Below are positions 46,396-56,206 of a stretch of 64,000 bases of DNA, one piece after another. A program made the position numbers and the translations under genes. Each line of letters starts with the position of its first letter. Positions within the stretch are counted from its first letter, which is position 1. The stretch is from Spirochaetales bacterium (GTDB taxonomy: Bacteria > Spirochaetota > Spirochaetia > Sphaerochaetales > Sphaerochaetaceae), in the NCBI GenBank assembly GCA_018433865.1, contig JAHDQJ010000002.1, positions 310,001 through 374,000 on the forward strand. The letters are read 5' to 3'. Below the pieces are notes generated by a model that did no database searches, was not told the origin of the DNA, and saw nothing but the letters and a program-made list of their open reading frames with translations.

Positions 46396-47096
46396 GCGTC
46401 ATCCCCCTCGTCAGGGGGCAATCCCTCCTGAGGACTGATGAACAGGGCAAACTCTCCCTTGATCGATTGCCTCTGGGCAAATTCGGTCGCAAGATCATCC
46501 GCCGTTCCCTCCACATACTCCTCGAACGCCTTCGTCATCTCGCGACCGACGAGCACTCTCCTCTGTGGCGCCAGCTCGGCAAGGTCCTGGAGCAACTTCA
46601 CCACCCTGAACGGCGATTCATAGAGCATGAAAGCCTCGTTGCGATCGAGCAGTTGCTTGAGCCGGCTTCTCCTCCGGCCCTGTCTGGGGCTGAGGAATCC
46701 ATCGAACGAGAAGCTTTTTCCGACGAAGCCGCTGACCGAGATCAGCGTTGCGACCGCGGAGACTCCCGGTATCGGGACGACAGGAAACCCTGCCGCACGT
46801 ACCGCGTTGACCACCTTGGTTCCCGGGTCACTGATCCCCGGCGTTCCCGCATCGGAAACGAACGCCACATCCTGTCCCTCGGCCAAGAGCTTCACGATAC
46901 CTGCCGCGGAGGCTGTCTCGTTGTGTGCGTGACACGCGATCAGTCGCTTGTGGATAGCGAAATGGGTCAAGAGCCGCTGGGTATGGCGTGTATCCTCACA
47001 GGCGATCACATCCACGGTCCGGAGCACCTGGAGGGCGCGCATCGTGATGTCTTCGAGGTTTCCGATCGGCGTGGCTACGACATGCAGTGTTCCCAT
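46392..47096 (-). CDS. rsmI: 16S rRNA (cytidine-1402-2'-O)-methyltransferase
   Basis: 234 residues of the tetrapyrrole-methylase fold. The N-terminal LHVVATPIGNLEDITMRA and ACEDTRHTQRLL blocks are followed by AFVSDAGTPGISDPG with the SAM loop and SFDGFLSPRQGRRR, all characteristic of RsmI. Later ALYESPFRV-like (MLYESPFRVVKLL) and GREMTKAFEEYVEGT match. It methylates C1402 in the decoding centre. No ribosome site precedes the ATG. TTGCCC-N17-TAGAAT ends six bases before it, predicting a leaderless mRNA. Confidence 0.95.
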   Translation of the reverse strand: MGTLHVVATPIGNLEDITMRALQVLRTVDVIACEDTRHTQRLLTHFAIHKRLIACHAHNETASAAGIVKLLAEGQDVAFVSDAGTPGISDPGTKVVNAVRAAGFPVVPIPGVSAVATLISVSGFVGKSFSFDGFLSPRQGRRRSRLKQLLDRNEAFMLYESPFRVVKLLQDLAELAPQRRVLVGREMTKAFEEYVEGTADDLATEFAQRQSIKGEFALFISPQEGLPPDEGDDA

Positions 47097-47102
47097 GGCG
47101 CC

Positions 47103-47131
47103 ATTCTAGCGGTAAACCGGGCCATGGGCAA
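47103..47131 (-). promoter_or_regulatory. rsmI promoter, predicted leaderless start
   Basis: Minus strand: TTGCCC, 17-bp spacer, TAGAAT, six bases, ATG. The -35 box abuts the psp palindrome at 47132-47146. Confidence 0.7.
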
Positions 47132-47146
47132 TGGTGAAATTTACCA
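47132..47146. promoter_or_regulatory. Predicted PspF enhancer site 1
   Basis: TGGTGAAATTTACCA, a near-palindrome that recurs upstream of the second pspA (49367-49381). Its centre is about 116 bp upstream of the GG of the -24 element. Matching distance and sequence at both promoters support PspF binding. Confidence 0.6.
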
Positions 47147-47252
47147 CATCATGCCCCATCGATGGCAAAACGGACACACTCACAGGAATCTTCGCCCCTG
47201 GGAATTGAAAAAACCGCTCATTGGGAGCCCGCAAACGGACATCTGCAAAAAG

Positions 47253-47269
47253 TTGGCACGGCTCTTGCA
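47253..47269 (+). promoter_or_regulatory. Sigma54 promoter of pspA1-pspC1
   Basis: TTGGCACGGCTCTTGCA, an excellent -24/-12 element with GG and GC 12 bp apart, about 75 bp before the pspA1 start. Confidence 0.9.
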
Positions 47270-47343
47270 TAAAGGGAATCAACAGAGAACAGACGGTATG
47301 CCGAGCCTGAGGTGGCAGTGGCAACGATAGCAAAGGAGTGAAT

Positions 47344-48018
47344 ATGAAGACGTTCAAGAGATTCAGGGACATTGTGAATGCCAATGTGAATGCAAAGCTT
47401 GACAAGATGGAAGATCCGGAGAAGATGATCCGTTTCATGCTCTCCGAAATGGAAGAGACGTTGGTCGAGGCAAAGAGTGCTGCTGCCGAGCGGTTGGCAA
47501 ACCGCGCGATCGTCGAGGACGAGATCAGCCGCACGAAGGATCTCCTCTCCCGTTGGGAGAACAGGGCACGGCTCGCAGTCGAAAAAGACCGCGATGACCT
47601 GGCTCGCGAGGCGCTTGCCGAGAAGAACCGGGTGGTGAGGCGTTTGGCCGGGCTTGAGGAAGAGCTGATCCAGATACAGTCGATCGTCGACTCGATGCAG
47701 GACCAGATCGCCAAGCTGGAGAGCAAGCGCGAGGAGGTCAGGGACAAGCAGAGGATGCTGATCCAGAGAGCCTACCACGCAAAGGAGAAGAAGAAGGTCG
47801 TGGAGACCTTGCGTGAGATCGATGCCGTGGCGACCTGCAGGAAATTCGCAGAGCTCGAGGAGAAGATCGAACGGATGGAAGCCGACGCGGAGATGGCCGG
47901 GTTCTCGGGAGCCGCGCACACGACCGAGAAGCAGTTCGCCCAGATGGAGACGGACGCTGAGATCGAGGCGGAACTGAGCAAGATGAAGGCCGCCAAGAGC
48001 AAGAAGAAGGAAGGTTGA
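47344..48018 (+). CDS. pspA: Phage shock protein A homologue, copy 1
   Basis: 224-residue PspA/IM30 protein, almost entirely coiled coil. The N-terminal amphipathic helix MKTFKRFRDIVNANVNAKLD binds membranes in relatives, and EDPEKMIRFMLSEMEETLVE follows. The C-terminus is Lys-rich. PspA oligomers protect the inner membrane under stress and, in proteobacteria, inhibit PspF. The ATG at 47344 has AAAGGAG five bases upstream. It is transcribed from a sigma54 promoter and followed after 4 bp by a pspC gene. A second, divergent-in-sequence copy lies at 49565. Confidence 0.93.
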   Translation: MKTFKRFRDIVNANVNAKLDKMEDPEKMIRFMLSEMEETLVEAKSAAAERLANRAIVEDEISRTKDLLSRWENRARLAVEKDRDDLAREALAEKNRVVRRLAGLEEELIQIQSIVDSMQDQIAKLESKREEVRDKQRMLIQRAYHAKEKKKVVETLREIDAVATCRKFAELEEKIERMEADAEMAGFSGAAHTTEKQFAQMETDAEIEAELSKMKAAKSKKKEG

Positions 48019-48022
48019 CGCA

Positions 48023-48301
48023 ATGGATTCACGGTACGAAGAGCGGTACAGACAGTATATGAAAAGCGAATACCGCAAAGGATATGATGACGGATGGTTT
48101 GATGCCGAACCTCGCAGGCCCCTGCGCAGATCCCGCAACGGAATTTTGCTCGGAGTGTGCCAGGGATTCGCAGATTGGTTGGCAATCCCGGCGTGGCCGT
48201 TGCGCGTCGCGACGATCATCGCCTTCATCGCAACAGGGTTCTGGCCCGTCGGGGCACTCTACCTCGCTGCAGCATTGATCATGAAACCCGCGTCCCGCTG
48301 A
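48023..48301 (+). CDS. pspC: PspC-domain membrane protein, copy 1
   Basis: 92 residues. A charged N-terminal ~38 residues (SRYEERYRQYMKSEYRKGYD) precedes the PspC domain proper, LRRSRNGILLGVCQGFADWL, and one or two membrane spans. In known systems PspC senses envelope stress and draws PspA to the membrane. It follows pspA1 by 4 bp with AAGGAAGG upstream. It differs from pspC2 in having its extra soluble part at the N-terminus rather than the C-terminus. Confidence 0.88.
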   Translation: MDSRYEERYRQYMKSEYRKGYDDGWFDAEPRRPLRRSRNGILLGVCQGFADWLAIPAWPLRVATIIAFIATGFWPVGALYLAAALIMKPASR

Positions 48302-48312
48302 CGCATGGTACA

Positions 48313-48340
48313 GGACCGCCTCCCCGGCGGTCCTTTCCTT
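48313..48340 (+). terminator. Terminator of psp operon 1
   Basis: GGACCGCC-TCCCC-GGCGGTCC followed by TTTCCTT. Confidence 0.8.
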
Positions 48341-49346
48341 ATCCCTCCAGGACATCCTTGTACTTGCGATAGAGGCCCCTGAACTGATCGTAGGTGAGAC
48401 CCATCGCCTTGGCCGCCTCCTTCTGGTTTCCCTGTGCAACCCCAAGCGACCGTCTCAGGAACCGGATATCGAGCTCCCGCTTGGCCTCATCATAGCTTTC
48501 CAATGGAAACTCATGGGAAAAGTCTGCCTTCGATGGTTGCTGCGGCGACTCATCGATCGGCTTGAAGGGATTCTCGAACGGATTGAACTGGATCGAATCG
48601 ATCTGTTTTCCCGCCGCACGATAGACCGCACGTTCCACCACATTCTTCAGCTCCCGCACGTTACCCGGCCATGGGTAGACGCACAACTGTTCCCTGACAC
48701 GTTCGCTCAGGACAGGAATGTCGGTCCTCCCGCACTCCATCGCCATCTTCGCCGCAAAATATTCGGCGAGCAGGAGGATGTCCTCCCCCCGCTCCCGCAA
48801 CGGAGGAAGGAAGAGCACTTCGAAGGAGAGGCGGTCGAGCAGGTCCTCCTTGAACTTTCCCTCTGCACAGAGCGTGGGAAGATCGGCATTGGTGGCTCCG
48901 ATGATCCGCACATCGCTCTCATGGGTCTTCGAGGAACCTACCCGCTCGAACGTCCCATACTCGACCACGCGCAGGATCTTCTCCTGGACCTCCAGGGGAA
49001 TCAAGCCGATCTCATCGAGGAAGAGGGTTCCTCCCTCGGCCTCCTCGAAGCGCCCCTTCCTCGTCTTCGTGGCTCCGGTGAACGCTCCCGCCTCATACCC
49101 GAACAGCTCGGTCTCGATGAGCGACGGAGGAAGTGCCGCGCAATTCACCGTCACGAGATTGTGCTGCCACCGGGGGCTGAGAAAGTGCAATCTCGTCGCA
49201 GCGATCTCCTTCCCGCTCCCCCGCTCCCCGACCACCAGGACGCTCCTGTTCACCGTGGCCGCCCTGCTCAGCGCCTGCTGGAAGTTGAGGAATGCCTCCG
49301 ACTCTCCGAGCGGCGCCTGCGCGTATCCTGTCCGATCTTCACTCAT
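48339..49346 (-). CDS. pspF: Sigma54-dependent activator PspF
   Basis: 335 residues: an AAA+ domain directly at the N-terminus and no receiver or sensor domain, as in PspF. Motifs are GERGSGKE (Walker A), GAFTGA (sigma54 contact, near residue 85), GGTLFLDEIG (Walker B) and the Arg-finger region DRLSFEVLFLPPLRERGEDI. The C-terminal Fis-type helix-turn-helix is NQKEAAKAMGLTYDQFRGLY. It should activate both adjacent sigma54 promoters and be inhibited by one or both PspA proteins. It lies between the two psp operons. No ribosome site precedes the ATG; TAAAAT ends six bases before it. Two palindromes matching the psp enhancer cover its own promoter, suggesting autorepression. Confidence 0.93.
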   Translation of the reverse strand: MSEDRTGYAQAPLGESEAFLNFQQALSRAATVNRSVLVVGERGSGKEIAATRLHFLSPRWQHNLVTVNCAALPPSLIETELFGYEAGAFTGATKTRKGRFEEAEGGTLFLDEIGLIPLEVQEKILRVVEYGTFERVGSSKTHESDVRIIGATNADLPTLCAEGKFKEDLLDRLSFEVLFLPPLRERGEDILLLAEYFAAKMAMECGRTDIPVLSERVREQLCVYPWPGNVRELKNVVERAVYRAAGKQIDSIQFNPFENPFKPIDESPQQPSKADFSHEFPLESYDEAKRELDIRFLRRSLGVAQGNQKEAAKAMGLTYDQFRGLYRKYKDVLEG

Positions 49347-49361
49347 AGGTGTATTTTACCA
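49347..49361. promoter_or_regulatory. Predicted PspF site 2a
   Basis: AGGTGTATTTTACCA, related to the other two psp palindromes (GGTnnnnnTnACCA). Its centre is 20 bp, two helical turns, from site 2b. It covers the pspF -10 box and abuts the pspF start codon. Confidence 0.5.
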
Positions 49362-49382
49362 CAGGATGGTCAATATGACCAA
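49353..49382 (-). promoter_or_regulatory. pspF promoter, predicted leaderless start
   Basis: Minus strand: TTGGTC, 18-bp spacer, TAAAAT, six bases, ATG. Both boxes lie inside the predicted PspF sites. Confidence 0.5.
49367..49381. promoter_or_regulatory. Predicted PspF enhancer site 2b
   Basis: TGGTCAATATGACCA, a 15-bp near-perfect palindrome. Its centre is about 118 bp upstream of the -24 GG of the pspA2 promoter, almost the same distance as site 1 has from its promoter. Confidence 0.65.
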
Positions 49383-49489
49383 GCCTTATGCTTCCCTCTC
49401 ATAGGACATCTTCATGACGAGACCATGCAAATCCATCTTGCAACTGACTTAAGAATGTTTCATAGTGTCATTGGAGTTTCCTTGCGATG

Positions 49490-49507
49490 TTGGCACGGTT
49501 TCTGCTT
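49490..49507 (+). promoter_or_regulatory. Sigma54 promoter of pspA2-pspB-pspC2-DUF4097
   Basis: TTGGCACGGTTTCTGCTT, with GG and GC 12 bp apart. The -12 part reads CTGC rather than TTGC, so it may be somewhat weaker than the pspA1 promoter. Confidence 0.85.
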
Positions 49508-49564
49508 GGTAAGGAGCAGAGAGTATGGGGATGCGTCGACATCGGACATACGAAGGAGTGGATT

Positions 49565-50218
49565 ATGGGAGTTTTCTCACGTTTCATGGACATAGTGAAC
49601 GCCAACATCAATGCGTTGCTGGACAAGGCGGAAGACCCTGAGAAGATGATCAAGCTCATGATGCAGGAGATGGAAGATACGTTGATCGAGCTCAAGTCCT
49701 CCTGCGCTGCGAAGATTGCATCGAAGACCAAGCTGGATCGCAACCGCGAAGAGTTGGCCAACAAGGCCGCCCGGTGGATGAATCGTGCCGAACTCGCGCT
49801 CGAGAAGGGGCATGAGGACCTGGCCAGGGAAGCGCTTGTGGAAAAGCGCAAGGCGGTCGATGATCTGGATCGTCTCACCGAGGATTCGCAACGCTATGAG
49901 GAGATGATCAGGAAGAGCAAGGAGGATATCGGCAAGCTGGAAGACAAGTTGGCCAACCTCCGCCAGAAACATCAGTCGATCGTGGAACGGGCCGCGAGGG
50001 CTCGCGAGGAGCAAGCTGCGAACGAGACGATCAGGAAAGCCTCCGATGCGCAGACCTTCTCCCGTTTCGAACACATGGAGCAGCAGGTCGACCGCATGGA
50101 AGCCGCTACTGGGATGAATCGTCCGAAGCCCGACCTCGAGTCGAGGTTCGCCGATCTCGAAGCACTTGATGATATCGAAGCTGAGCTTGAGCAACTGCGC
50201 AAGCAGAAGAAGAGCTGA
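49565..50218 (+). CDS. pspA: Phage shock protein A homologue, copy 2
   Basis: 217-residue PspA/IM30 coiled-coil protein. It begins MGVFSRFMDIVNANINALLD, then KAEDPEKMIKLMMQEMEDTL, the canonical PspA N-terminus. The body differs from copy 1 throughout. AAGGAG lies about seven bases before the ATG. It leads an operon with pspB, pspC and a DUF4097 gene from a sigma54 promoter. Because this copy is accompanied by PspB and PspC it is the likelier PspF inhibitor; that is inference. Confidence 0.93.
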   Translation: MGVFSRFMDIVNANINALLDKAEDPEKMIKLMMQEMEDTLIELKSSCAAKIASKTKLDRNREELANKAARWMNRAELALEKGHEDLAREALVEKRKAVDDLDRLTEDSQRYEEMIRKSKEDIGKLEDKLANLRQKHQSIVERAARAREEQAANETIRKASDAQTFSRFEHMEQQVDRMEAATGMNRPKPDLESRFADLEALDDIEAELEQLRKQKKS

Positions 50219-50247
50219 GCACGTAAGCTCTCGGGGGAATACTGATC

Positions 50248-50481
50248 ATGAATGGGGATACGTTGATCGCTGTCGTTGCCATCGCCGCACCGTTTCTCTT
50301 CGCCGCCTGGGTCATCAAGACCGGCATCAAGGCGAAGGACCGCAAGCGGGGAGTCCGCGACCAGAAGGAACAGGATCTGAGGCAGAGCGACAGGGAATTG
50401 GAAGATGGAATCATGGATATGGTGAAGCGGATAGAGAATCTTGAGATCATTCTCCGCAACAGAAACCATCATAAGGAATAA
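50248..50481 (+). CDS. pspB: PspB-like membrane protein
   Basis: 77 residues. One N-terminal membrane span (LIAVVAIAAPFLFAAWVI) is followed by a charged helix ending RIENLEIILRNRN. This matches PspB in size, topology and the final coiled-coil, where E. coli PspB has a similar leucine-zipper-like tail. PspB works with PspC to release PspF from PspA. The start has a GGGGGA-type site. Only this operon has a pspB. Confidence 0.8.
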   Translation: MNGDTLIAVVAIAAPFLFAAWVIKTGIKAKDRKRGVRDQKEQDLRQSDRELEDGIMDMVKRIENLEIILRNRNHHKE

Positions 50482-50492
50482 GAAGGATGTAT

Positions 50493-50867
50493 ATGGCAAC
50501 CAAAAAACTCTACCGATCACGGAGGGGAAAACTGTTCGGTGTATGCCAGGGCATTGCCGACTGGAGGGACCTGCCGGTCGACATACTCCGTGCGATCGTC
50601 GCGGTATCGATCATCGTCACCGGCATTTTTCCCGGTATCATCATCTACGCACTGGTAGCCCTGTTTCTCCCCTTGGAGCCAGGGTACGGAACCTCCTACG
50701 AGGAATCGGAAGAGAGGGAAAACGACCGGAGCAAAGGCCACACGAGGACCAGGGAAGACCTGCGAGAGACCTTCGAGAACCTGAAGAGGAAAGTCCAGGG
50801 GATGGAGGAAGAGATCTTCGACAAGGAACGCGATTGGGACCAGCGCTTCCATGAGGATCACAAATGA
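50493..50867 (+). CDS. pspC: PspC-domain membrane protein, copy 2
   Basis: 124 residues from ATG 50493, chosen because AAGGA lies five bases upstream while ATG 50487 abuts it. The PspC domain is LYRSRRGKLFGVCQGIADWR, with a membrane span (IIVTGIFPGIIIYALVALFL). A long C-terminal charged coiled-coil ends in ERDWDQRFHED and probably contacts PspB or PspA. It overlaps the DUF4097 gene by ATGA. Confidence 0.9.
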   Translation: MATKKLYRSRRGKLFGVCQGIADWRDLPVDILRAIVAVSIIVTGIFPGIIIYALVALFLPLEPGYGTSYEESEERENDRSKGHTRTREDLRETFENLKRKVQGMEEEIFDKERDWDQRFHEDHK

Positions 50868-51727
50868 TGAAGAGGATGGGAATCAGCCTGTTGCTCCTGA
50901 TCGCTGCGTGCGCAGTCCTCGGAGCGACGGGGCAAACATACCAGGAAACCCTGAGGCCGTCTGACGATGGCGAGATCATCGTCAGAAGCGATGCTCCCCA
51001 GGTCACCATCGAACGGCACTCCGACAGCCAGGACGTGCTGGTGGATCTCTCCGGACCGGGCAAGGACCGCTACCGGCTTACCGTACGGAAAGATGGAGGC
51101 GACGTGTTCGTCGAGGTGAAAAAGAAGCGGGGTGTCTTCATCGGATTGCGCTCTTTCCTCGATGCACGGCTGACCGTCTCCATTCCCCGGCGATGGGAAG
51201 GCTCCGTGCTCTCGGTCTCGACGGTTTCGGGTGCGCTGCAGGTCAAAGAACCGGTCTCAGGACGTTCGGTGTATCTCAAGTCAGTCTCCGGTGCAATCAA
51301 TTTCGATACGATACGCACTACACGCGAAGCATCCGTGGAGACGGTATCGGGAGCGATCAGGGGGCATCTCGTCGAAGCTGGCGAGCTTGATCTCTCCAGT
51401 GTCTCGGGAGCCATCCAGGTCGACTCGATAACCGAGACCGGTAATGGCAAGGCGCTGGTCGAGACCGTCTCCGGTTCCATCAGGATCGGCAGGACCGAGG
51501 GAAACTCATTCAAGCTCGGCAGCGTCTCGGGAGCAATCCAGGTGGCACTCCCCGCCCGGTTCGCAGGGGTCGTCACCACCAGCAGCATCAGCGGTTCGAC
51601 CAGTGCGGACTTCGCAAGCGAGCATACCGCTTCGAGTGACAAACGGACCCAGCGCCATACCGTCGGTTCCGGTACCGACTCGATGGAAGTGGGCACCACA
51701 AGCGGTTCGATCCGTATCACCCGCTAG
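50864..51727 (+). CDS. Exported DUF4097 repeat protein of the psp operon
   Basis: 287 residues. A hydrophobic N-terminus (SLLLLIAACAVLGATG) is either a signal peptide or a loose lipobox with Cys at IAAC. From about residue 120 at least seven short repeats centred on VSGAI/VSGSI recur about every 17-25 residues, as in DUF4097 beta-helix proteins. Function is unknown in the family. The ATGA overlap with pspC2 and the terminator after it make it part of the Psp response. I infer an envelope-facing or periplasmic partner of the PspBC sensor. Confidence 0.82.
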   Translation: MMKRMGISLLLLIAACAVLGATGQTYQETLRPSDDGEIIVRSDAPQVTIERHSDSQDVLVDLSGPGKDRYRLTVRKDGGDVFVEVKKKRGVFIGLRSFLDARLTVSIPRRWEGSVLSVSTVSGALQVKEPVSGRSVYLKSVSGAINFDTIRTTREASVETVSGAIRGHLVEAGELDLSSVSGAIQVDSITETGNGKALVETVSGSIRIGRTEGNSFKLGSVSGAIQVALPARFAGVVTTSSISGSTSADFASEHTASSDKRTQRHTVGSGTDSMEVGTTSGSIRITR

Positions 51728-51749
51728 GACATCCTTCCCGGTATTCCCC

Positions 51750-51783
51750 GAAAGCTGCCGCCGACCGGCAGCTTTCTTATTTC
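51750..51783 (+). terminator. Terminator of psp operon 2
   Basis: GAAAGCTGCCG-CCGAC-CGGCAGCTTTC followed by TTATTTCCCTT. Confidence 0.85.
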
Positions 51784-51841: not shown

Positions 51842-52309
51842 ATGGAAGACACTTCCCCTCCGTGTACCCGGATTCCGGTACTGACCCAGATATCGCGCCT
51901 ACGGCTCTTGCGTGCTCACTCACTGCTCTCAGACATGCAATTGCACCCTCCACAGTACCACCTGCTCGCCATGCTCGATGAAAATGATGTGCCCAGCCAA
52001 GCTGAGATCGCCTCCCGCCTGATGGTGAAACCCTCCACGCTCACGGTGATGATCAGGAGGATGATGAAGAACGGACTGGTGGGCAGGAGAGCTGATTCGG
52101 AGGATCGGCGGATCCGGAGGGTCTTTCGTACGGAAAAAGGTTCGCGACTGCTTGAGAACGCGCGACTTCGGTTTACACGGATCGAGCGGGAAACTTTCGA
52201 CGCATTGGACGAACAGGAACGCGCGTGTTTCGAAGCACTGGCACTTTGCATCCGCGACAACCTGGCAAAGGCAACCGAAGGGGAGGACTGCGCATGTCCG
52301 TGGTTCTGA
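51842..52309 (+). CDS. MarR-family regulator
   Basis: 155 residues. The winged helix reads PSQAEIASRLMVKPSTLTVM then IRRMMKNGLVGRR, and the wing is ADSEDRRIRRVFRTEKG. Its gene overlaps the first ABC exporter gene by 16 bp, so it probably represses this operon and responds to a transported compound. GAGGA lies about four to five bases before the ATG. The Cys at 8 and the CACPW near the C-terminus are unusual but unexplained. Confidence 0.88.
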   Translation: MEDTSPPCTRIPVLTQISRLRLLRAHSLLSDMQLHPPQYHLLAMLDENDVPSQAEIASRLMVKPSTLTVMIRRMMKNGLVGRRADSEDRRIRRVFRTEKGSRLLENARLRFTRIERETFDALDEQERACFEALALCIRDNLAKATEGEDCACPWF

Positions 52310-54345
52310 GATACGCCAGGAAATCGGCACCATTCATCCTCCTCGTCGTACTGCTGCTCATCGGGAAGGTCGTCTCCGATCTCACCCTCCCCCTCTACAC
52401 CTCGCGGATCGTAAACATAGGCATCCAGCAGGGAGGACTTGAGCATACGGTTCCCTCCGCTTTGGGCGAAGCTACGTTCAAGGCGCTCTCATCGATCGCC
52501 GATGAGAGCACACGCTCCATCCTCGAAGCCTCCTATCGGTTCGAGCCCGACACGCATGCGATCTCTGCCTATGTACTCACCGATGATGCTCGGGTGGACG
52601 AGACGATGATGAGCGATCTGCTTGCCACGCTCAGCATGGGCGCGTTGGCGAGCGAGGCGAACCAGAGCCTCCGCAGACAAGCTGCACTCTCGCTCATCAG
52701 CACCGAGTACGAGAGACTGGGCATGCCGATGGGGACGATACGGCAACGCTACATCATCCGCACCGGCTTGATGATGCTGCTCATCAGTGCACTCGGGATG
52801 GTCGCTTCGATGCTTGTCTCCCTCTTCGCCAGCCGTATCGCCGCGGCTCTGGGCAAAGACCTTCGTTCGGCGCTGTTCGCGAAGACGGTATCGAGCAACC
52901 AAGAGGAGATCGAACGGTTCTCCACGGCAAGCTTGGTCACCAGGAGCACCAATGATATCCAACAGATACAACAGTCTTTCGTGATGATCCTGCGGGTAGT
53001 GGTTTTCGCTCCGCTGATGGCACTCGGCGGTCTCTTTCGGGTGTTGCAAACCAACAGCAGCATGTCCTGGACGATCGGTGTGGGCATACTTGCCGTACTT
53101 ACGGTGGTGATGACGATGTTCGTCCTCGCGATGCCCCGTTTCAAGCGGTTGCAGATTCTGGTCGACTCGATCAACCGGATCGTGCGGGAGACCCTCAACG
53201 GACTGCAGGTCATCAGGGCCTTCAACACCCAGGACCATGAGCGGCAACGGTTTGCCAAGGCGAATGATGAGCTGACCGCCACCAGCCTGTTCGTGAACCG
53301 CGCCATGAGCGCGATGATGCCCGCCATGATGCTGATCATGAACCTGACGACCATCCTGATCGTGTCCAAGGGAGGACAACACATTGCCCAAGGAACGATG
53401 CAGGTGGGAGACATGATGGCGTTCATCCAATACGCAATGCTGATCATCATGAGCTTCCTCATGATCAGCATGCTCACCATCATGCTCCCCAGAGCCGCCG
53501 TAAGTGCCACCAGGATCAAGGAGGTACTCGACACTCCTTTCACGATCACGCAATCCGACATGCCGATAGCCCTCCCCGATCCTCTTCAGGGAAGGATCGT
53601 CTTCGACCGGGTCAGCTTCTCGTATCCGAAAGCCGAGGCACAGGCCCTCAGCGATATCTCGTTCTCTGCCGAGCCGGGGAGCGTCACCGCGATCGTGGGA
53701 AGCACCGGCAGCGGGAAGTCGACATTGCTGAGCCTGCTGCTTCGGTTCCACGACATCGCATCGGGGTCCATCACGATCGACGGCGTGGATATCAGGGAAG
53801 CCGAACTCTCGTCCCTGAGAAGCAAGATCGGGTATGTTCCCCAGCGTGCACTCCTGTTCAGTGGAACGATCCGTTCCAACATCGCATTCGGCAAAAGCGA
53901 CATCGATGAAGCGGCAGTTGCACAGTCGGCCGACCTGGCCATGGCGGGCACCTTCATCGGCGAGAGGAACGAAGGGTACGACGCGCCTGTCTCACAGGGA
54001 GGGACGAACGTCTCGGGAGGGCAACGGCAACGGCTTTGCATCGCACGCGCGATCGTCGGTTCCCCACCGATCCTCCTCTTCGACGACAGCTTCTCCGCAC
54101 TTGATTACCGTACCGAGCGACAGGTCCGCCAGAATCTTCGGGACCACCTGGGCGGATCCACGGTCCTCATCGTCGCACAGCGGATCAGCAGCATCCTGCA
54201 TGCAGACCAAATCCTCGTGCTCGACGAGGGCAGACTGGTGGGCAGCGGGAGTCATCGATACCTCATGGAACACTGTCCGGTATATCGACAGATAGCCTCC
54301 TCGCAACTGTCACCACAGGAGATCGAAGCATATGGCACACAGTGA
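52294..54345 (+). CDS. Heterodimeric ABC exporter subunit, degenerate ATPase site
   Basis: 683 residues: a six-helix ABC exporter membrane domain, with a ~130-residue extracytoplasmic insert after helix 1, fused to an ATPase domain. Walker A is GSTGSGKST and the signature is VSGGQRQR. The Walker B is ILLFDDSFSALD, with Asp for the catalytic Glu, and the switch His is Gln (IVAQRISS). This is the pattern of the non-catalytic half of heterodimers such as TM287/288. ATG at 52294 has GGAGG eight bases upstream. It overlaps its partner by 14 bp. Confidence 0.9.
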   Translation: MSVVLRYARKSAPFILLVVLLLIGKVVSDLTLPLYTSRIVNIGIQQGGLEHTVPSALGEATFKALSSIADESTRSILEASYRFEPDTHAISAYVLTDDARVDETMMSDLLATLSMGALASEANQSLRRQAALSLISTEYERLGMPMGTIRQRYIIRTGLMMLLISALGMVASMLVSLFASRIAAALGKDLRSALFAKTVSSNQEEIERFSTASLVTRSTNDIQQIQQSFVMILRVVVFAPLMALGGLFRVLQTNSSMSWTIGVGILAVLTVVMTMFVLAMPRFKRLQILVDSINRIVRETLNGLQVIRAFNTQDHERQRFAKANDELTATSLFVNRAMSAMMPAMMLIMNLTTILIVSKGGQHIAQGTMQVGDMMAFIQYAMLIIMSFLMISMLTIMLPRAAVSATRIKEVLDTPFTITQSDMPIALPDPLQGRIVFDRVSFSYPKAEAQALSDISFSAEPGSVTAIVGSTGSGKSTLLSLLLRFHDIASGSITIDGVDIREAELSSLRSKIGYVPQRALLFSGTIRSNIAFGKSDIDEAAVAQSADLAMAGTFIGERNEGYDAPVSQGGTNVSGGQRQRLCIARAIVGSPPILLFDDSFSALDYRTERQVRQNLRDHLGGSTVLIVAQRISSILHADQILVLDEGRLVGSGSHRYLMEHCPVYRQIASSQLSPQEIEAYGTQ

Positions 54346-56206
54346 ACCGAGACAGACACGACCCCTGTCGGTGATGCCGATGCGACATCCCGGACGGCAT
54401 GGTCCCGTACAGAAGGCAAAGGACTTCAAGGGCACTGCACGCCGCTTGATGGGAAGGTTGCGTTCCCATGCCGCGGCGATCGTCGCCGTGCTGCTCCTTG
54501 CGCTGGCGGGAACGTTGTTCTCCATCATAGGCCCGAAGATCCTCGGAAGTGCGACCACAACCATCTTCAGCGGACTGACGAGCAGCCTCGAAGGCCGAGA
54601 CGGCATCGATTTCTCCCGAGTCGGAAGCATACTTTCCTCACTCGCGCTGCTCTACGTGGCGAGTTCGCTGGCGATGTTCGGCCAAGGATTCATCATGAGC
54701 ACCGTGACGCAGCATATCTCGAAAGCACTGAGGAAGGAGGTCACCGACAAGATCCATCGCATGCATCTGAGCAGTTTCGACAAGACGACGCACGGAGACA
54801 TCCTCAGCCGCGTCACCAATGACATCGACACGCTGGGACAGAACCTCAGCCAAGGCCTGGTGCAGGTGCTCGTCTCGATGGTCACCATGGGAGGCGTGCT
54901 GATCATGATGCTCAGCATCAGCTGGATGATGACCTTGGTGACGCTGGTGATCCTTCCCCTCTCCGTCCTGGTCATCTCCCGGATCGTCGCCGCATCACAG
55001 AAATACTTCGTGCAACAGCAGAAGACCTTGGGGGAGCTCAATGGTCAGGTCGAGGAGATCTATTCAGGACATGCGGTCGTGAAGGCTTTCGGTGCGGAAC
55101 AGCAAGTCATCGGCCGATTCGAAGAGACGAATGCAACACTGTACGAGTCTGCGTGGAAAAGCCAGTTCCTTTCATCGCTGATGATGCCGGTGATGCAAGG
55201 AATCGGGGATGTCGGATACGTCCTCATCGCGCTTCTCGGAGGAGCGCTCGCGATCCGCGGCGCGATCTCGATCGGCGATATCCAGGCATTCATCCAATAC
55301 ATGCGCAACTTCACCCACCCGATCGCACAGGTGGCCCAGGTGACGAACCTCCTGCAATCGACCGTCGCCGCAGCAGAACGGGTGTTCGAGTTCCTCGATG
55401 GAGAGGAGGAGTCGGACGAAGGCGCTCACGTGCTGCCGCACGTGGTGCGGGGTGACGTCAGTTTCTCCAACGTCCGTTTCGGATACGACGCCGAGCACAC
55501 GGTGATCGGCGGTTTCACCGCCGAGGTGAAGTCGGGGATGAAGGTAGCGATCGTAGGTCCCACGGGAGCAGGCAAGACCACCATGGTCAAGCTCCTGATG
55601 CGTTTTTATGACCTGCAGGGAGGAATGATACGCATCGATGGCCACGATATCGCATCCCTCTCACGGAAAAACCTGCGTTCGCTTTTCGGCATGGTACTCC
55701 AGGATGCCTGGCTCTTCAACGGGACGATCCGTGAGAATATCCGGTACGGAAACCTCAGCGCCACCGATGACGAAGTGGAGGAGGCAGCAAAGGCCGCAAG
55801 GATCGATCACTTCATCCATACACTGCCCGATGGGTACCGGATGGTGGTCAACGAGGAATCCTCGAACATTTCGCAAGGACAACGTCAGCTGATCACGATC
55901 GCACGGGCAATCCTTGCCGATCCGAGCATCCTCATCCTCGACGAGGCGACCAGCAGTGTCGATACGCGTACCGAGGTGCTCATCCAGGAGGCGATGGATC
56001 ATCTGATGGCACGAAGGACCAGCTTCATCATCGCCCACCGGCTTTCGACCATCAGGAACGCCGATCTCATAGTGGTGATGCACCACGGTGACATCATCGA
56101 ACAGGGTACGCACGAACAATTGCTCGCGAAGGGAGGTTTCTACACCGACCTGTACAGTGCGCAGTTCGAACACTCCGAGGTTGGAGACATTCCCTCTTCC
56201 GACTAG
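54332..56206 (+). CDS. Heterodimeric ABC exporter subunit, catalytic site intact
   Basis: 624 residues with an N-terminal tail, six membrane helices and an ATPase domain. Walker A is GPTGAGKTT, Walker B ILILDEATSSVD with the Glu, and the switch His is in FIIAHRLSTI. The signature reads ISQGQRQ instead of LSGGQ. That variant would complete the partner's degenerate site, while the partner's proper signature completes this intact site. Substrate is probably a drug, lipid or peptide. CAGGAG lies about nine bases before the ATG. Confidence 0.9.
   Translation: MAHSEPRQTRPLSVMPMRHPGRHGPVQKAKDFKGTARRLMGRLRSHAAAIVAVLLLALAGTLFSIIGPKILGSATTTIFSGLTSSLEGRDGIDFSRVGSILSSLALLYVASSLAMFGQGFIMSTVTQHISKALRKEVTDKIHRMHLSSFDKTTHGDILSRVTNDIDTLGQNLSQGLVQVLVSMVTMGGVLIMMLSISWMMTLVTLVILPLSVLVISRIVAASQKYFVQQQKTLGELNGQVEEIYSGHAVVKAFGAEQQVIGRFEETNATLYESAWKSQFLSSLMMPVMQGIGDVGYVLIALLGGALAIRGAISIGDIQAFIQYMRNFTHPIAQVAQVTNLLQSTVAAAERVFEFLDGEEESDEGAHVLPHVVRGDVSFSNVRFGYDAEHTVIGGFTAEVKSGMKVAIVGPTGAGKTTMVKLLMRFYDLQGGMIRIDGHDIASLSRKNLRSLFGMVLQDAWLFNGTIRENIRYGNLSATDDEVEEAAKAARIDHFIHTLPDGYRMVVNEESSNISQGQRQLITIARAILADPSILILDEATSSVDTRTEVLIQEAMDHLMARRTSFIIAHRLSTIRNADLIVVMHHGDIIEQGTHEQLLAKGGFYTDLYSAQFEHSEVGDIPSSD

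Follow-up and report, generated by a model that had tools for sequence, protein, structure and literature searches.

An old, conserved doubling of the psp operon around a single pspF gene in Sphaerochaetaceae spirochaetes, and a proposed division of labour between the two copies

A 64,000-nucleotide stretch of DNA (hereafter, the window) from the 2.9 Mb genome of a member of the Spirochaetia carries two phage-shock operons, pspA1-pspC1 and pspA2-pspB-pspC2-DUF4097, on either side of a single pspF gene (Table 1). The account of this arrangement that is favoured here, with moderate confidence, is that the whole of an ancestral pspABC operon of spirochaetes was duplicated, and that one PspF would activate both copies by way of a common palindromic enhancer located approximately 115 base pairs before each sigma54 promoter. 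The classical regulatory loop would have been kept by the pspA2-pspB-pspC2-toastrack copy, in which PspA2 would bind the W60 patch of PspF and keep that activator inactive until, under stress, PspB and PspC2 capture PspA2 by means of the PspC2 C-terminal tail, and PspF is freed. The pspA1-pspC1 copy would be mainly a second output, that is, a PspF-driven membrane effector arm consisting of PspA1, a membrane-coating ESCRT-III protein whose membrane-contacting helix is more cationic, and of a PspC1 that lacks the tail.

The identities of the genes were checked with Pfam and NCBIfam profiles, which confirmed the two operons around one pspF that an earlier note had described from the DNA of the window. 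The genome as a whole encodes two proteins each of the PspA and PspC types and no more; of its five strong sigma54 activators, one qualifies as PspF when a strict threshold is applied. While pspB is weak by profile, it is placed where PspB would be expected and is syntenic across the family. The further descriptions of two clearly distinct PspA and PspC proteins, and of a canonical -24/-12 promoter and a separate terminator for each operon, were also upheld: the PspA pair is 40% identical and the PspC pair 43% identical (over the PspC domain only), the promoters depart from consensus by zero and one mismatch, and each operon ends in a hairpin with a T-rich tail. A scan for terminators found 5 overall, against 4.0 in shuffled sequence, with the stems at 48312 and 51750 the strongest by far; an Rfam scan of the region gave no match. 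Directly downstream of the pspA2 operon are found a MarR-family regulator and then two ABC exporter genes (51842-56206), and such regulator and exporter genes recur there in several relatives (L034, L035, L038, L039, L045, L048 and L057).

Table 1. Genes and regulatory features of the doubled psp locus (positions within the window)
Feature	Position	Strand	Description
Putative UAS, pspA1 operon	47132-47146	.	TGGTGAAATTTACCA; 22.8 bits (pspA2-side-trained matrix)
Sigma54 -24/-12 promoter, pspA1-pspC1	47254-47269	+	TGGCACGGCTCTTGCA; 0 mismatches
pspA1	47344-48018	+	PspA/ESCRT-III paralogue, putative effector-biased copy; PF04012 148 bits
pspC1	48023-48301	+	PspC domain; PF04024 46 bits; N-terminal extension of ~30 aa, no C-terminal tail
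Terminator hairpin after pspC1	48312-48334	+	9-pair stem and T-rich tail; between convergent pspC1 and pspF ends
pspF	48339-49346	-	Sigma54 activator without receiver domain; TIGR02974 438 bits (cut-off 443.6)
Putative PspF UAS I	49347-49361	.	AGGTGTATTTTACCA; 18.5 bits; one mismatch; abuts pspF start codon
Sigma70-like pspF promoter	49353-49381	-	TGGTCA-17-TAAAAT; consensus match only; overlaps both UAS
Putative PspF UAS II	49367-49381	.	TGGTCAATATGACCA; 15.5 bits; exact pattern match; 20 bp from UAS I
Sigma54 promoter, pspA2 operon	49491-49506	+	TGGCACGGTTTCTGCT; 1 mismatch; 0.94 of maximum score
pspA2	49565-50218	+	Classical PspA, putative regulator and effector; PF04012 139 bits; TIGR02977 227 bits
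pspB, divergent	50248-50481	+	Sub-threshold: PF06667 15.7 bits (cut-off 25.6), TIGR02976 21 bits (cut-off 51.7)
pspC2	50487-50867	+	PF04024 52 bits; conserved 62-aa C-terminal tail ending FDKERDWDQRFHEDHK
DUF4097/toastrack, LiaG-like	50864-51727	+	PF13349 80 bits; NF049997 LiaG 86 bits, below cut-off
Terminator hairpin, pspA2 operon	51750-51776	+	11-pair stem, T-rich tail

A comparison of gene neighbourhoods answered the concern, raised in the earlier note, that the duplication might be unique to this strain and silent, and indicated instead that it is old and conserved. Two PspA proteins are present in 23 of 37 genomes of the host's family (which rules out a strain-specific event), one in 3 and none in 11 (one of these last carrying a sub-threshold match), and the doubling was found in two further families. 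PspA1 forms one clade (98/94) that spans families f1, f3 and f4, and the age of that clade rules out a recent duplication. PspA2 follows in the tree the single PspA of other Spirochaetia; in the single-copy relatives G010, G020, G035 and G209 the PspA protein groups with PspA2, and PspA1 is absent. PspA1 without PspA2 was never seen among the relatives examined, and one candidate for such a genome (G145) was set aside when a genome search located its PspA2 approximately 57 kb away. Two f4 genomes (L058 and L251) retain pspA1-pspB-pspC1 beside pspF, which argues that the duplicated unit was the whole pspABC operon. The pspF gene adjoins rsmI in relatives that have a single copy or an unlinked operon (L073, L249 and L254), and in doubled, linked relatives the pspA1 operon is found between rsmI and pspF.

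Other doublings were encountered during the same comparison. Two loci of family f26 (L261 and L277) possess a tandem pspA pair within one operon beside pspF, the result of a separate duplication, and the first tandem copy in L261 lacks a good sigma54 or UAS match. In a third locus of that family (L262, in genome G142), pspA-pspC and pspA-pspB-pspC are arranged in series to one side of pspF; both have a sigma54 promoter of their own, and the doubling is apparently independent. One additional genome (G132) contains two pspF-pspA loci, L264 and L265; the PspA of L264 groups in the tree with proteobacterial PspA, and may have been acquired horizontally.

The case for a single activator is derived from the DNA that precedes the two operons. 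A sigma54 promoter precedes pspA1 in all relatives examined, and in a first set of relatives the sigma54 score was at least 0.92 upstream of every PspF-linked PspA, and at most 0.78 upstream of PspA in those Spirochaetia whose PspA is without a true PspF beside it. Genome-wide, with one mismatch allowed, the sigma54 pattern occurs at only about 1.7 times the control count, so that single matches to it mean little. Alignment of the DNA 5' of the relatives' promoters further revealed a 15-base-pair palindrome, TGGTnAAWTTnACCA, and exact matches to TGGTNNAWWTNACCA are located at only two places in the entire genome of the host (47132-47146 and 49367-49381). The distance from the center of the site to the -24 element is 115 base pairs for pspA1, and 117 and 137 base pairs for pspA2. 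When a matrix was trained on sites 5' of pspA2 and of single pspA genes, with the pspA1 side held out, a site was recovered upstream of 25/25 pspA1 operons, with scores of 12.7-24 bits. For comparison, mononucleotide-shuffled stretches of 200 bp reached 12.6 at their 99.9th percentile, and real genomic windows reached 12.8 at their 99th; the two weakest sites (L053 and L062) are borderline against these controls. The pattern alone also matches other places in relatives, and has zero exact matches in one of them (G011), and is therefore informative only alongside a promoter.

In seven cases (L042, L053 and L281-L285) one operon is unlinked from pspF, and these operons retain the sigma54 promoter in 7/7 cases and the palindrome in all, albeit weakly in L282 (10.4 bits). 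This retention rules out the possibility that pspA1 merely adjoins pspF. The palindrome, judged from its sequence and position, is likely a PspF enhancer that the activator would bind, and since it is present at both operons, a single PspF very probably activates the two of them. A different activator for pspA1 was considered, given the other strong sigma54 activators in the genome, but the palindrome points to PspF. The element constitutes a testable predicted PspF site beyond the Proteobacteria.

The PspF protein itself retains the F/Y-L-W patch (RLHFLSPRW) on which PspA docks, the W56 loop of which is a known regulatory contact (PMC3791423); the corresponding tryptophan, W60, is invariant in 23 relatives, and the protein of the window is close to E. 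coli PspF structures. The two PspA proteins differ in the region that would face this patch. In E. coli PspA, residues 25-47 are PspF-regulatory and residues 2-24 form a membrane-sensing helix (PMC6003685). In a comparison of 27 genome pairs, the identity among PspA2 proteins was 86% over residues 2-24, 86% over residues 25-47 and 34-50% elsewhere, and the corresponding values for PspA1 are 58%, 51% and 41-46%. Column entropy over residues 2-47 is 1.19 for PspA1 versus 0.33 for PspA2, and over residues 48-222 it is equal (1.65 in both). The regional contrast is found in 252/253 genome pairs (which are non-independent), and 1/221 circular shifts was as extreme as the contrast observed at residues 2-47. 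PspA2 from the window, whose best PDB match is 4whe, is 87% identical to E. coli PspA over residues 2-24. The mean charge of residues 1-24 is +1.2 for PspA1 (range -1 to +4), -1.9 for PspA2 and -1.1 for single PspA proteins, with values of +2 and -2 for PspA1 and PspA2 in the window.

These patterns make it moderately probable that labour is divided between the two copies, with PspA2 acting as the chief inhibitor of PspF and PspA1 as an effector; confidence goes no higher because PspA1 of the window keeps much of the 25-47 segment (61% identical to PspA2) and could still bind PspF. That the two jobs of PspA have been split outright, such that PspA2 retains repression of PspF and PspA1 has been freed as a dedicated, more cationic ESCRT-III effector, is about evenly balanced between being true and not. 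The relaxed residues 2-24 correspond to the membrane helix, and could reflect altered membrane binding and not lost binding to PspF.

The PspC proteins display a comparable asymmetry. In the enterobacterial model, the C-terminus of PspC binds and captures PspA upon stress (PMC6003685). The C-terminal tail of PspC2 is conserved across the class, with a motif close to FDKERDWDQRF, and PspC2 usually has 50-80 residues after the PspC domain; for PspC1 the number is 0-12 (f1 and f3) or 21-23 (f4), with 3 in the window, where the pspA1 operon is also without pspB. The earlier note had placed the extensions of the two PspC proteins at opposite ends, which holds for the window; family-wide, the feature is instead a PspC1 without the C-terminal tail, the N-terminal extension of PspC1 being limited to the host's genus and near relatives. 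That extension could carry a new interaction.

The same note had suggested two stress inputs, or two membrane targets, feeding one activator. The single activator was borne out by the palindrome and sigma54 promoter, which are kept also at unlinked operons. Two inputs, by which PspA1 and PspA2 would each inhibit PspF and would be freed by PspC1 and by PspB-PspC2, respectively, in response to different stresses, now appear unlikely. Such an arrangement would be compatible with the derivation of both PspA proteins from a PspF-linked PspA, with the EMEETLVEAK motif retained in PspA1 of the window, with the alternative N-terminal extension of its PspC1, and with the PspF hexamer binding six PspA molecules, which would permit mixed occupancy (PMC3791423). 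It is PspA1, however, and not PspA2, that is relaxed family-wide at exactly residues 2-47; its operon has lost PspB and the PspC tail, and several relatives lack pspC1 beside pspA1 (L038, L040, L041, L048, L051 and L057). One input loop with two outputs is therefore favoured, because the components that serve as input in enterobacteria have been lost or relaxed in the pspA1-pspC1 arm. As regards two membrane targets, the more cationic first helix of PspA1 lends that notion some support.

PspA1 could also influence PspF indirectly, by entering mixed polymers with PspA2 and altering the release of the latter from PspF or the membrane, such that induction would feed back on the sensor loop. The two proteins share a fold and would be co-induced by one activator. 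Residues 145-186, which belong to a C-terminal region that has been associated with contacts between PspA molecules (PMC6003685), show higher conservation in PspA1 than in PspA2 (46% versus 34%); an identity of 40% nevertheless permits separate polymers, co-assembly is hypothetical, and this explanation is regarded as quite improbable. Least probable is that PspA1-PspC1 is a redundant, decaying duplicate retained by chance. While pspC1, and even pspA1, has been lost in some genera, and PspA1 evolves faster overall (mean identity of 46.1% versus 53.6% for PspA2), three families retain intact frames, promoter and palindrome, even after relocation, and residues 48-222 of PspA1 are conserved equally to those of PspA2.

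Many features of the locus correspond to the classical PspF-PspABC(DE) system of E. coli and Yersinia: a PspF without a receiver domain that displays the Y/F-L-W patch (Y51/L52/W56) and its invariant tryptophan, divergent pspF and pspA genes, two predicted enhancer-like sites beside the pspF start, a sigma54 promoter, and the gene order pspA-pspB-pspC within one operon (here, that of pspA2). Between the pspF and pspA genes of E. coli, the two highest-scoring matches to the palindrome are likewise separated by 20 bp and lie next to the pspF start, but they are weaker, at only 10.9 and 2.2 bits. The pspA1 operon, without pspB and the PspC1 tail, does not constitute a pspABC operon. The locus departs from the classical system in having a second copy of the operon, from which PspB and the PspC tail have been lost, under one and the same PspF, and in the presence of a toastrack gene and the absence of pspD and pspE. 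With a second sigma54 operon that would answer to one PspF and yield an effector, it recalls pspG of E. coli, an unlinked second PspF target that is an effector for which a major regulatory role is not known (PMC2763126); unlike that small, unrelated membrane protein, the second output here is a PspA-PspC pair. In Bacillus subtilis, PspA/LiaH, YvlC (PspC) and LiaG/YvlB (DUF4097) belong to one envelope network (PMC9239133), which similarly brings together two PspA paralogues, PspC and toastrack; there, however, the lia operon is separate from the yvl/pspA operon, lia is under LiaFSR, and neither PspF nor sigma54 is involved. Models for LiaF, LiaR and LiaS gave no match among the genes scanned here, such that only the LiaG-like toastrack gene recalls the Lia-type system of Firmicutes, whereas the operons possess sigma54 promoters and predicted PspF sites.

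The components of the locus have been described previously. A 2022 survey reported PspA duplications in 16 phyla, and indicated that assigning PspF to a Psp response is difficult outside Proteobacteria (PMC9239133). Ravi et al. (2024) describe classic pspABC in some spirochaetes, and in a few of them PspF operons that contain further genes, for PspB/PspC fusions and toastrack proteins (PMC11237479); the main text of their article mentions neither two operons around one PspF, nor a common enhancer, nor asymmetry between copies. Among the papers searched, none linked Sphaerochaeta to phage shock or spirochetes to pspF, and none described twin psp operons with one PspF, a common enhancer and diverged roles. 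Inhibition of PspF and coating of the membrane are both jobs of E. coli PspA, and separation of these two functions has so far needed truncations of that protein. A family-wide natural pair, in which one PspA keeps its regulatory face and the other is unconstrained there, would offer a ready-made separation of function and, if the proposed roles are correct, a natural split between regulation and membrane repair, which E. coli PspA combines in one protein.

The sites beside pspF may also bear on its own control. The pspF start codon is 0 bp from UAS I, and a Shine-Dalgarno sequence was not found there (window 49344-49361); in relatives, the palindrome nearest pspF is frequently contiguous, or almost contiguous, with the start codon, again with no Shine-Dalgarno sequence found. 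The location of the palindrome at the pspF start, together with the overlapping sigma70-like promoter, suggests that PspF may repress its own gene, and the message is perhaps leaderless. On the opposite side of the locus, the pspA1-side palindrome is approximately 36 bp from the start of the divergent rsmI gene, which encodes a 16S rRNA methyltransferase (47096-47146), and PspF might affect rsmI as well.
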